Source of the DNA: Chromatiaceae bacterium
Lineage (GTDB): Bacteria > Pseudomonadota > Gammaproteobacteria > Chromatiales > Chromatiaceae
Assembly: GCA_007693535.1 (NCBI GenBank)
Contig: REDK01000118.1
Coordinates: 1-64,000, forward strand
Length of the DNA stretch: 64,000 nucleotides
Direction: 5' to 3'
A model generated the notes under the pieces. The model made no database searches and had not been told where the DNA came from. It worked only from the letters and a program-made list of their open reading frames with translations. This document shows positions 35,135 to 42,083 of this stretch, in pieces; position 1 is the stretch's first letter; each line of letters starts with the position of its first letter. The position numbers and the translations under genes are program-made.

Positions 35135-35575
35135 TTAGGCGCCGCAGACCACGCGCCGGTAATAGGCGGCGAAACGCTTGTCCTGGGCGATCACGTGATT
35201 GAAGAACCAGTGCTTGATCGCCTGCCGATCATCCGTGCCCAGGGTGCGGTGGGTCTGGCTGGCCAAGGCGCGGCGCAGGTCGATGAACTCCGCCATCTGC
35301 AGGGCATGCTCGCGGGTGTGCTGGGTCAGGTCGGGATAGCCGATCTCGCTGAGAAAATGCTGCTCGACGCCAAAGTGGTTGCGCAGGAAGTCGATCAGGT
35401 CATCGAGCCGGGTGGCCAGCGGGGCGGGATCGTTCTCGTCGCCGAGGCGGTTGATCAGGCGCACCATCTCACGATGATCGTGATCCAGCAGGTCGATGTC
35501 GAGCAGCCAGGCATCGCGCCAGGGCAGCAGCTCTTTAGCCAGGGTGCGGGGACGAACGGGATCAATGACTTGCAT
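35135..35575 (-). CDS. bacteriohemerythrin
   Basis: Non-haem diiron oxygen-binding protein, 146 aa with a four-helix bundle. Likely ligands are His34 (DHDHREM), His67 and Glu71 (NHFGVEQHF), His86 and His90 (QHTREHALQM), and His127 and Asp132 (WFFNHVIAQDKRF), which is the complete set. The start ATG 35575 is chosen because the upstream open frame lacks family similarity. Possible roles are oxygen storage, or delivery to oxidases or detoxification under microaerobic conditions. The bd oxidase genes lie 6-8 kb away. Confidence 0.92.
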   Translation of the reverse strand: MQVIDPVRPRTLAKELLPWRDAWLLDIDLLDHDHREMVRLINRLGDENDPAPLATRLDDLIDFLRNHFGVEQHFLSEIGYPDLTQHTREHALQMAEFIDLRRALASQTHRTLGTDDRQAIKHWFFNHVIAQDKRFAAYYRRVVCGA

Positions 35576-35866
35576 CGCGGGGTAACTCCGAAGGTCGGGC
35601 GGAACCGGTTGGCGGTTCGGTGAGGGCCGACCCTGGTGCCTGCTCGGCACGTCGCTGCCGGCCAGCGAAAACCAAGTGCGATTCTAAGCTAATAGCCTTG
35701 GCTTGATAAGCATTTGCGTCCGCGCCGGTTGCCAGGCGGCCGGCTGAACCGTCGAACCGACGCCAGGCCGTCCGGCGCCAGCCCCGGCACCTGTCCGCCA
35801 CCAGGCGAGTTGTCGGCGCGGTCGGTACAATTGCAGGTCGGATCGACGCTCACCGGGGACCTTGCC

Positions 35867-38800
35867 ATGACCCGCCTCCTGCGCACCCGCGGCTTCTTGC
35901 CGTTCATCGCCGTGGTGTTTCTGAACAGCTTCGTCGATCTGGGCCACAAGATCATCATCCAGAATGCCCTGTTCAAGGCCTATGATGGGGCCGAGCAGGT
36001 CTGGCTGACCAGTATCGTCAATGCACTGATCCTGCTGCCATTCATTCTTCTGTTCACGCCGGCCGGCTTCGTTGCTGACCGCTGGTCTAAGAATCGAGTG
36101 ATGCGGGTGGGCGCGGCACTGGCGGTCGTCATCACCCTGGGTATCACCGCCTGCTATTACCTGGGGCTGTTCTGGCCCGCCTTCGCGATGACCTTCGTGC
36201 TTGCCACACAGAGCGCGATCTATTCGCCAGCCAAGTTTGGTTATATCAAGGAACTGTCCGGTAACGAGGCCCTGACTATTGCCAATGCCTGGGTGCAGGC
36301 AGCGGTGAGCACCTCGATCCTATCGGGCATCCTGGTTTTTTCGATGCTGTTCGAGGCGCGCCTGCTGACAGCCGACGGGGCCATCGGCGGGGTCGGACTG
36401 GACCCGGATACCCTGTTGCGCCGAGTCGCCCCGGTCGGCTGGTTCCTGGTGCTGGGCTCGCTGCTGGAGCTGGCCCTGACCTTCCGGCTGCCCGACCGCT
36501 GGCCGGAGGACCGCAGCCTGCGTTTTGATTGGCCAGCCTATCTGCGCGGGGGCTATCTGAGGCAGAACCTGCATGCCGCCTGGCATAACCAGGTCATCTG
36601 GCTGTCGATCATCGGCATTGGGGTATTCTGGGGCATCGCCCAGGTCCTGATGGCAGTGTTCCCCACCTTCGTTGAGGAACGCCTGGGGGAGACCAATACG
36701 GTCAGCATTCAAGGCACGATGGCCTGCGCCGGCATCGGCGTGGTACTCGGGGCGATGCTGGCCGGGCGGGCTGCCCGCGATCACGTGGAACTGGGACTGA
36801 TTCCGGTCGGGGCGATCGGTATCGCGCTGGTGCTGTTTCTGCTCCCGGGGATCGACCAGCTCTGGTTGCACGGGGTGAATTTCTTTGCCATGGGCCTGCT
36901 CGCCGGGTTGTTCCTGGTACCGCTCAATGCCCTGATCCAGTTTCATGCCGGCGAGCGCGCCCTGGGCCGGGTGCTGGCAGCAAAGAACTTCATTACAAAT
37001 TGGATCATGCTGCTGGCTTTGGGGCTGACCCTGCTGGCGGCAATCGCGCACAGCGGCAGCGGTGCCATCATGTTCGCCTTGGCCCTGGTCGCCGCTGGCG
37101 GTGCCGGCTACACCATCTGGCAATTGCCGCAGTCGCTGGTGCGCTTCGCGGTAGCGCAACTGGTAGCCACCCATTATCGGCTGCGGGTGATCGGGTTGGA
37201 TCACCTACCGGCGCAGGGCGGGGTACTGCTGCTCGGTAATCACATCAGCTGGATCGACTGGGCAATGGTGCAGATGGCCTGCCCGCGGCCGGTGCGCTTC
37301 GTGATGGAGCGGTCGATCTATGAGCGGCGCATCTGGCGCTGGCTGCTGGACCTATTCGGGGTGGTGCCGATCTCGCGCGGGCGCGCCCGCCATGCCCTGC
37401 ATGCAGTGACCGAGCTGCTCGACCGCGGCGAGGTGGTGTGCCTGTTCCCGGAAGGCACGCTGAGCAAGAATGGTCAACTCGCCGCCTTCAAGCAGGGCTT
37501 CGAGGTGGCCGCCCGAGGTGCCCGTGGGGAGATTGTGCCCTTCTATCTGCGCGGCCTCTGGGGCAGCCGCTTCTCCTTTGCTAGCGACCGGCTCAAGCGG
37601 ACCCGCCGCGACGGGCGCATCCGCGATGTGATCGTTGCCTTCGGGGCGCCGTTGCCAATGGACAGCAGCGCGCGGCAGGTCAAGCAGGCGGTGGTAGAAC
37701 TCTCGGTCAGTTCCTGGCAGCAACACGCCGAGGGGTTGCCGACCCTGCCGCGGGCCTGGTTGGCGATGGCACGGCGCCACCCTGGCCGGGAGGTGCTGAT
37801 CGATGTCGATGGCAAGCCCCTCAGCAACCGGCGGCTGATGGCAAGTGTGCTGCTGACAACGCGCGCCCTCAGACGGCGTTGCCCGGGACCGCGGGTTGGC
37901 ATCCTGTTGCCGCCCGGTCGCGCCGCGGTGATCGCCAACCTGGCGGTCTGGTGCGCCGGCAAGGCGGTGGTCAACCTGCGCCCGCCGCCGGCCCGCGCCC
38001 CAGTCGCGGGGCGGCCGGGTGCGGATGCGCAACCCGGTTCAGAACTAGGTTCCGACCCCGGTTGCAAGCAGGGTCAGTGGCACTTCCAGCACGCCCTGCA
38101 GGCCACCGGCGTGGGGCAGGTGATCGGCGCCTACCCGTCCGCGGCTGCCGAGGCCGATGCCGATGCCGATTCTGGCACCGGTGCTACCACCGAGTGGCTG
38201 GCGCTCGACGACCTGCTGCCAGCCCGCAATCGCCTGCTGGGACTGGCCGCCTGGACCGCGGCGCTGCTGGCGGCGACCTTGCTGCCGGCGTCCTTGCTGA
38301 TGGCCCTCTATGGCCGGCGGGTCCGTCCGCACCAGACCGCGGCGATCCTGTTCCCGGTGCGCGGCGTGCGCGCCGCCCGCGCCGTGGCGATCAACCATCG
38401 CAATCTGCTCGCCAATTGCCGTCAGATCGCAGATGTGCTGAATCTGGAATGCGACGACCTGCTGCTCGCCGGCCTGCCGCTGGATCATGCCTACGGACTG
38501 ACACTGACCCTGGCCCTGCCGCTGCTGGAGGGCATCCCGCTGGTGTGTCATCCCGACCCGACCGATGCCCTAGGGCAGGCACACACGATCGCCCGCCACC
38601 AGGTCAGTCTGCTGTGTGCAACACCGTCCCAGCTACAGGGCCTCGTCGCGCATCCGCGGGTGCATCCGGTGATGCTCGCCGGGCTGCGCCTGGTGGTGGC
38701 CGCCGGCGGGCCGCTTGGGCGCGCCTTGCACGATGGCTTCGCGCTGCGTTTCAACCAGACCCTCTACGCCGGCTATGGCGCCACCGAGGCGACCCCGTTG

Positions 38801-39136
38801 GCTAGTCTCAATGTGCCCGATGCCATCGAGACCAATACCTGGAAGCTGCAAATCGGCAATCGCCCGGGCACGGTCGGCATGCCGCTGCCCGGCACCTGCT
38901 ATCGCATCGTTGATCCGCTCAGCCTGGCGACCCTGCCAGCGGATACCGAGGGCGAGATCCTGATCGGCGGCGTGCAGGTCATGCAGGGCTATCTGCACGA
39001 CCCAGCCGCCACCACCGCGGCGATCGTCGAACTCGATCGCCAGCGCTGGTATCGCACCGGCGATCGCGGCCGGCAGGATGCCGAGGGATTCCTGACAATC
39101 ACCGGCCAGGGCGAGGTAGCCAACCCTCCAGCATGA
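35867..39136 (+). CDS. MFS-PlsC-AMP-binding fusion, lysophospholipid acyltransferase type, degenerate C-terminus
   Basis: A 1089-aa fusion. An N-terminal MFS/LplT-like transporter (about residues 1-430, many spans, AIYSPAKFGYIKEL) is joined to a PlsC acyltransferase domain (about 440-640, with HISWID for H-x4-D and FPEGTLSKNG). A region like the AMP-binding domain of 2-acyl-GPE acyltransferase/acyl-ACP synthetase follows. In that last domain the ATP P-loop reads ILFPVRGVRAARAVAINH, where a Ser/Thr/Gly-rich loop is expected. The protein also ends at LTITGQGEVANPPA, about 100 residues short, without the catalytic Lys subdomain. The synthetase activity is probably lost while transport and acyl transfer may remain. 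Low-complexity Asp/Ala/Gly-rich linkers occur near 720-760. The gene ends 10 bases before a MITE-like element. Confidence 0.88.
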   Translation: MTRLLRTRGFLPFIAVVFLNSFVDLGHKIIIQNALFKAYDGAEQVWLTSIVNALILLPFILLFTPAGFVADRWSKNRVMRVGAALAVVITLGITACYYLGLFWPAFAMTFVLATQSAIYSPAKFGYIKELSGNEALTIANAWVQAAVSTSILSGILVFSMLFEARLLTADGAIGGVGLDPDTLLRRVAPVGWFLVLGSLLELALTFRLPDRWPEDRSLRFDWPAYLRGGYLRQNLHAAWHNQVIWLSIIGIGVFWGIAQVLMAVFPTFVEERLGETNTVSIQGTMACAGIGVVLGAMLAGRAARDHVELGLIPVGAIGIALVLFLLPGIDQLWLHGVNFFAMGLLAGLFLVPLNALIQFHAGERALGRVLAAKNFITNWIMLLALGLTLLAAIAHSGSGAIMFALALVAAGGAGYTIWQLPQSLVRFAVAQLVATHYRLRVIGLDHLPAQGGVLLLGNHISWIDWAMVQMACPRPVRFVMERSIYERRIWRWLLDLFGVVPISRGRARHALHAVTELLDRGEVVCLFPEGTLSKNGQLAAFKQGFEVAARGARGEIVPFYLRGLWGSRFSFASDRLKRTRRDGRIRDVIVAFGAPLPMDSSARQVKQAVVELSVSSWQQHAEGLPTLPRAWLAMARRHPGREVLIDVDGKPLSNRRLMASVLLTTRALRRRCPGPRVGILLPPGRAAVIANLAVWCAGKAVVNLRPPPARAPVAGRPGADAQPGSELGSDPGCKQGQWHFQHALQATGVGQVIGAYPSAAAEADADADSGTGATTEWLALDDLLPARNRLLGLAAWTAALLAATLLPASLLMALYGRRVRPHQTAAILFPVRGVRAARAVAINHRNLLANCRQIADVLNLECDDLLLAGLPLDHAYGLTLTLALPLLEGIPLVCHPDPTDALGQAHTIARHQVSLLCATPSQLQGLVAHPRVHPVMLAGLRLVVAAGGPLGRALHDGFALRFNQTLYAGYGATEATPLASLNVPDAIETNTWKLQIGNRPGTVGMPLPGTCYRIVDPLSLATLPADTEGEILIGGVQVMQGYLHDPAATTAAIVELDRQRWYRTGDRGRQDAEGFLTITGQGEVANPPA

Positions 39137-39146
39137 GCAACCGGCG

Positions 39147-39309
39147 TTAGGCGATTTCTGTCGACTTTCATACCATCTGACTGGTCTTGACGCCGGCCTT
39201 CGGCGTCGCACTGGCGGTCACGGCGCTTGCGATGCTCCTGCCAGCCATCCTTCAAGGACGAACGGCAATCCTGCGTCATCTGGCACAAAAGGTTACGGCA
39301 ACCGCCTTA
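39147..39309. mobile_element. MITE-like element family 2, copy A
   Basis: A 157-bp core (39150-39306) flanked on both sides by TTA. The ends GGCGATTTC and CAACCGCC are imperfect inverted repeats. It is similar along its length to copy B (41915-42083), for example GCACTGGCGGTCAC and GCGTCATCTGGC. The right-hand TTA (39307-39309) is, on the minus strand, exactly the TAA stop of aceK. The left end is 10 bases after the truncated acyltransferase fusion gene. Confidence 0.75.
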
Positions 39310-41693: not shown

Positions 41694-41914
41694 GACGCGG
41701 TTCCGGGTGACGGGCCGGCCCCGATCGGGGGTCGGTCCTGAGGGGGAGCGCCGGTTGCCCGGGGCCAGGCCTGACGGTCAGCGAGTAGATCTGGAGATTA
41801 CCGTGGGCAGGAGGCCGACCGCGCTGGGTCCGGTTGCCATCCCTGGCGCGGCACTGCGACGGCGGCCCACCAGCAGGCAGCGGTCGCCCGGTATCGACGG
41901 GGGTTTAGGCGATT

Positions 41915-42083
41915 TCGGTCAACCTTCAGACCATCATGACTTGTCTTAACGCGCGCCTTCGCCGTCGCACTGGCGGTCACAGCGCTTGCGCTGCTCCCGC
42001 CAGCCCTCCGCAAGAAGGCGAATGTCAATCCAGCGTCATCTGGCCTGCATCATCTGGCAGAAAAGTGTCCGCCAATCGCCTTA
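41915..42083. mobile_element. MITE-like element family 2, copy B
   Basis: A 163-bp core (41918-42080) flanked by TTA on both sides. The ends GGCGATTTCG and CCAATCGCC are inverted repeats. The interior matches copy A in several blocks. The right-hand TTA (42081-42083) is exactly the TAA stop of aceA on the minus strand, the same relation as copy A has to aceK. The element separates aceA from rraA. Bases 41694-41914 hold no gene that I can identify. Confidence 0.75.

Follow-up and report, generated by a model that had tools for sequence, protein, structure and literature searches.

Truncated LplT-Aas fusion of a Chromatiaceae bacterium with a predicted non-catalytic synthetase lobe, and similar truncations among its relatives in Chromatiales and Halomonadaceae

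The window (the whole stretch of DNA analysed, 64,000 nucleotides) originates from a purple sulphur bacterium. At 35867–39136, on the forward strand, it carries an open reading frame for a truncated LplT-like MFS/PlsC/AMP-binding fusion protein of 1089 aa. Pfam matches are MFS_1, Acyltransferase and AMP-binding. The best family model is PRK08633 (LplT-Aas fusion), with 1112.7 bits, below the 1221-bit cut-off for full-length members. Domain order is the same as in the PRK08633/NF006386 acyl-[ACP]--phospholipid O-acyltransferase, but the C-lobe of the synthetase is absent and the ATP loop is destroyed. A hemerythrin-like gene lies upstream on the opposite strand (35135–35650); several Thiohalocapsa loci (L060, L061, L062, L090) have a homologue in the corresponding position.

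The MFS domain comprises residues 1–415 (35867–37111, forward strand, as are all features below). It matches Pfam MFS_1 and, partially, NF008397 (LplT; 118.7 bits, cut-off 297), and is assigned as a lysophospholipid flippase by homology. The PlsC acyltransferase domain (residues 425–623, 37139–37735; Pfam Acyltransferase) contains NHISWID (H-x4-D; H459–D464) and FPEGTLS (residues 527–533). Both parts are conserved and appear intact, the latter as the first-pass annotation of this DNA had stated.

The remainder, residues 624–1079 (37736–39103), is the large ANL subdomain, or N-lobe, of an acyl-ACP synthetase. The lobe is retained and, from its motifs, predicted to be catalytically dead. The ATP (P-)loop, residues 829–838 (38351–38380), is degenerate in the alignment and reads FPVRGVRAAR. 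The A5 motif YGATE (residues 970–974, 38774–38788) and the A7 motif TGD (residues 1064–1066, 39056–39064) are retained. A new 10-residue tail and stop (39104–39136) stand in place of the A8 hinge and the C-lobe. The protein thus ends 10 residues after DGFL ('DGFLTIT'), or 29 counted from WYRTGD, whereas full-length relatives continue for 106–138 residues after DGFL (median 113); the shortfall of about 100 residues takes in the A8 hinge (DRYSRFAK) and the motif PKLGSGK with the catalytic lysine. Two features of an active ANL acyl-ACP synthetase are therefore lacking: the Ser/Thr/Gly-rich ATP loop (A3), and the A8 hinge with the C-lobe and the A10 lysine. Alignment with full-length Aas-like fusions bears out the earlier statements that the loop had been lost and that the protein stops about 100 residues early, without the catalytic-lysine subdomain. 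Compared with other members of the ANL superfamily (acyl-CoA and acyl-ACP synthetases, luciferases, NRPS A domains), the window protein shares the N-lobe fold and the A5 and A7 motifs but lacks the ATP loop, the hinge, the C-lobe and the catalytic lysine, and would be classed as a pseudoenzyme. Two low-complexity insertions in the N-lobe (residues 710–734 and 756–773; 37994–38068 and 38132–38185) are absent from most relatives.

The stop lies where the large (N) lobe of the synthetase would meet the small (C) lobe. Vibrio harveyi AasS has an N domain of residues 1–424, followed by a six-residue linker to the C domain (PMC11271967); by these boundaries the cut falls at the interlobe joint. AlphaFold predicts an intact ANL N-domain whose end coincides with the established domain boundary; N-lobe pLDDT is mostly 80–95, low at the former ATP loop and at the two insertions. 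The best structural match (VIA-align) is the ANL enzyme 8weu (Z 43.0, rmsd 2.3, 380 aligned). Structures consisting of the N domain only (3t5b, 3t5c, 6vhu) match with Z about 40; such structures exist, and the lidless N-lobe is therefore considered a stable unit.

A MITE copy with imperfect terminal inverted repeats (39147–39309, about 160 bp) begins 10–12 bases past the stop, where the first-pass annotation had seen a MITE-like element. The ends are AGGCGAT...ATCGCCT, and about 40 copies are present in the genome, a second one within the window at 41905–42044. The end of the first copy provides the TAA stop (39307–39309) of a convergent aceK-like gene. Insertion of the element beside the new stop could be taken as the cause of the truncation. 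This is highly improbable: the short tail that precedes the stop does not consist of MITE sequence; three congeners (G001, G003, G005) share the joint of truncation but show no match to the MITE at the locus; and Vreelandella and others have this truncation too. As a general cause of truncation the MITE is rejected on the evidence of the three congeners. The genome of G001 possesses 40 or more diverged copies.

The GTDB genus of the window genome includes Halochromatium salexigens DSM 4395 (G003) and Halochromatium sp. A10 (G007). The protein of strain A10 is full length with an intact loop. In G001, G003 and G005 the end joint is that of the window gene, and the loops are ruined, each differently. 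The LplT-Aas fusion is absent from three of the eight congeners searched (G002, G004, G006). Identity of the window protein to full-length Chromatiaceae orthologues is 55–66%; orthologues of the length of the window gene exist, and their loops are ruined in different ways.

Relatives were collected from the family (210 genomes, gene present in 119), from class and phylum samples, from Halomonadaceae (275 genomes, gene present in 69) and by a GTDB contig scan. Among 151 non-redundant gammaproteobacterial proteins, 99 are full length and 40 truncated. The remainder consists of contig ends, full-length proteins without a clear lysine motif, forms with MFS and PlsC only, and the proteins L053 and L133, of which L133 stops inside the C-lobe and has an intact loop. 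All 40 truncated proteins stop 3–61 residues (median 8) after DGFL. The loop, scored against [ST][ST]G[ST]E[GN]xPK, is of the consensus type in 98 of the 99 full-length proteins, the remaining one differing by a single K-to-N change. It is non-consensus in 36 of the 40 truncated proteins and perfect in four. The association of truncation with a non-consensus loop (36/40 vs 1/99; Fisher p ~1e-27, though the proteins are not independent) is more than chance, and the window gene is not an isolated decaying gene. Nine Vreelandella species form one clade with a common truncated form. In two genomes (L053 in G029, L056 in G022) copies of the fusion are frameshifted or split into pieces and are candidate pseudogenes.

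It might be supposed that the synthetase is still active with a C-lobe supplied in trans, or that the stop is an assembly error. Both are highly improbable, and no evidence for either was found. The ATP loop is ruined as well, and the pattern recurs in closed or near-closed genomes (G803, G816, G828, G829). No free-standing C-lobe in trans was found; short AMP-binding_C frames are read from their coordinates as fragments at contig ends, a position checked for one of them (G000 C89), where it was confirmed.

The order of the two losses can be read from the survey. Four Vreelandella proteins (L221, L222, L223, L224) are truncated with the loop still perfect; L225 has one loop change, L226 and L227 have loops further decayed, and in older truncated clades the loop is fully altered. 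None of the 99 full-length relatives has a ruined loop. Truncation therefore came first and loop decay after. The earlier suggestion that catalysis had been lost before or independently of the truncation is contradicted by these proteins. A recent event is visible in L223 (G812). Compared with L197, this gene has lost about 185 bp from a point in the hinge where an imperfect short repeat (ATGCTCG / ATGCTTG) lies, and a relic of the C-lobe can still be read downstream. L217 has a weak 27-residue C-lobe match downstream (E 0.006). No relic was found in the remaining truncated genes, in up to 1.5 kb of downstream sequence. Loss of PldA as a driver (no free fatty acid, hence no need for a synthetase) was considered and rejected; presence of PldA does not track truncation.

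Events were counted on a tree built with IQ-TREE from 629 columns of the MFS-PlsC part, loss being treated as irreversible. The consensus tree requires 18 truncation events, 200 bootstrap trees 16–20, and at least 13 remain when nodes below 95% are collapsed most favourably. The sequence after the stop is common to L222 and L226/L227, though the MFS-PlsC tree separates them; this suggests recombination, and the safe figure is therefore lowered to about 12. The Vreelandella share of the 18 events may accordingly be smaller. Shared post-stop sequence in L221, L222, L226 and L227 suggests recombination of 3' ends between Vreelandella species. Truncation at the same joint is estimated to have occurred about 12–18 separate times among relatives in Chromatiales and Halomonadaceae. 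The AU test does not reject a single Halochromatium event for the window gene and its three truncated congeners (p 0.19), and these four may be the product of one event. A joint event of Thiohalocapsa marina with the truncated Halochromatium genes is rejected (AU p 0.027).

Selection was estimated per domain, a check that the first-pass annotation had proposed. Omega is 0.03–0.09 in MFS and 0.02–0.07 in PlsC, similar in truncated and full-length clades. For the N-lobe, codon models give 0.138–0.151 in truncated Halochromatium, 0.188 and 0.190 in two Vreelandella clades and 0.052 in a three-genome family (f67), against 0.040–0.089 in full-length clades; omega = 1 is rejected in the truncated clades by 78–224 lnL units. 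The N-lobe is thus relaxed, 2–4 fold in most truncated clades, yet constrained and far from neutral. Retention in the loop-dead truncated proteins was scored at sites that are at least 97% invariant in the full-length ones: 98% are kept in MFS, 99.5% in PlsC (47 sites scored) and 78% in the AMP-binding part. Losses in the N-lobe cluster at the loop (core 28–55% kept) and at the hinge (21–48% kept). The four defined residues of YGxTE (Y, G, T, E), the TGD aspartate (36/36) and structural glycines and prolines are kept at 94–100%.

The main rival explanation is slow neutral erosion. Once the C-lobe is gone the synthetase half would be useless, and the N-lobe would be a relic on the way to a form with MFS and PlsC only, kept for now as the end of a useful protein. 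Such forms exist (L163, L164, L171, with no AMP-binding domain). They resemble the window protein in joining flippase and acyltransferase without a working synthetase, but lack the N-lobe that the window protein keeps, and in these lineages the N-lobe is dispensable. The raised N-lobe omega of most truncated clades, the two low-confidence insertions in the window N-lobe and its fast branch agree with erosion; by NG86 per-branch values, dN on the window branch is 0.33 in the N-lobe vs 0.13–0.14 in the other domains, with dS near 0.5, saturated and probably underestimated. Erosion is nevertheless judged unlikely, though it deserves more weight than any other rival. Omega lies far below 1 within wholly truncated clades, the glycines, prolines, YGxTE and TGD are kept as given above, and, the frameshifted L053 and the forms ending after PlsC aside, no truncated protein stops within the N-lobe. 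The alternative of a gene in decay, raised in the first-pass annotation, fits poorly with truncated clades that hold the N-lobe at omega 0.05–0.19; its other suggestion, a protein streamlined to acylate lysophospholipid from an existing donor, appears the best reading of the sequence. The dead N-lobe is still under selection and so probably has a job other than catalysis.

One such job would be that of a ligand sensor: by way of YGxTE and TGD the N-lobe would still bind a fatty acid, AMP or an acyl-adenylate, and it would switch the acyltransferase or the flippase. The retained A5 and A7 motifs lie on the adenylate side, the pyrophosphate loop and the catalytic lid being gone, and ANL cores without a C-lobe have been solved with AMP or an inhibitor (7ywk, 5zrn). 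Against this, other pocket positions drift in loop-dead relatives (E939 56%, G917–E919 61–72%, H845 69% kept), and YGxTE may be retained for folding alone. A sensor is improbable, more so than erosion.

The preferred reading, given a probability of about 0.6, is a lysophospholipid flippase-acyltransferase that runs on ready-made acyl-ACP, in which the synthetase N-lobe persists without catalytic function, as a scaffold or an ACP dock. The sequences show that the mobile C-lobe, which carried the hinge and the catalytic lysine, was cut off at the interlobe joint and that the ATP loop decayed next, while flippase, acyltransferase and N-lobe fold stayed under purifying selection. The MFS part would flip lysophospholipid inwards. 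PlsC would re-acylate it with acyl-ACP from de novo fatty-acid synthesis, not with acyl-ACP made in situ. The leftover N-lobe most plausibly docks (acyl-)ACP beside PlsC or holds an oligomeric form. In Escherichia coli LplT flips lysophospholipid and Aas re-acylates it, and Aas-T is able to bind LplT by itself (PMC11416262). The Aas of E. coli binds ACP at a high-affinity site and accepts acyl-ACP of de novo origin in vitro, though less well (PMC13170283); on these two grounds the truncated fusion could plausibly run on acyl-ACP of fatty-acid synthesis. In E. coli LplT and Aas are separate proteins whose functions match by homology (flippase, HxxxxD acyltransferase, synthetase-derived domain); the synthetase of E. 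coli Aas works, whereas that of the window protein is predicted to be unable to. Docking of ACP by the N-lobe would be a putative role, proposed by analogy with E. coli Aas. For the role of the N-lobe, ACP docking or an oligomer scaffold would be the first choice and a ligand sensor the second, with slow erosion as the main rival. More tentative is a wider proposal: the N-lobe may repeatedly and convergently have become a non-catalytic regulatory module of the flippase-acyltransferase to which it is fused, acting as an ACP dock or as an adenylate/fatty-acid sensor; in each case the C-lobe would first have been deleted at the hinge and the ATP loop would have decayed later.

The individual domains, their fusion and the general phenomenon of pseudoenzymes are already known, and fused LplT-Aas proteins have been described as uncharacterised (PMC11416262). 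No description of their recurrent truncation was found in the open-access literature. The truncated proteins would constitute a recurrent natural experiment, in which fatty-acid activation in situ was given up by about a dozen or more lineages that kept the flippase, the acyltransferase and a dead N-lobe. Truncated and full-length sister species of Vreelandella are matched pairs for experiments. The recurrent truncation opens a direct test of whether Aas-type acyltransferases need their own synthetase and of what the N-lobe does beyond catalysis. The finding also bears on pseudoenzyme formation, the lid being lost first and the active-site loop later.
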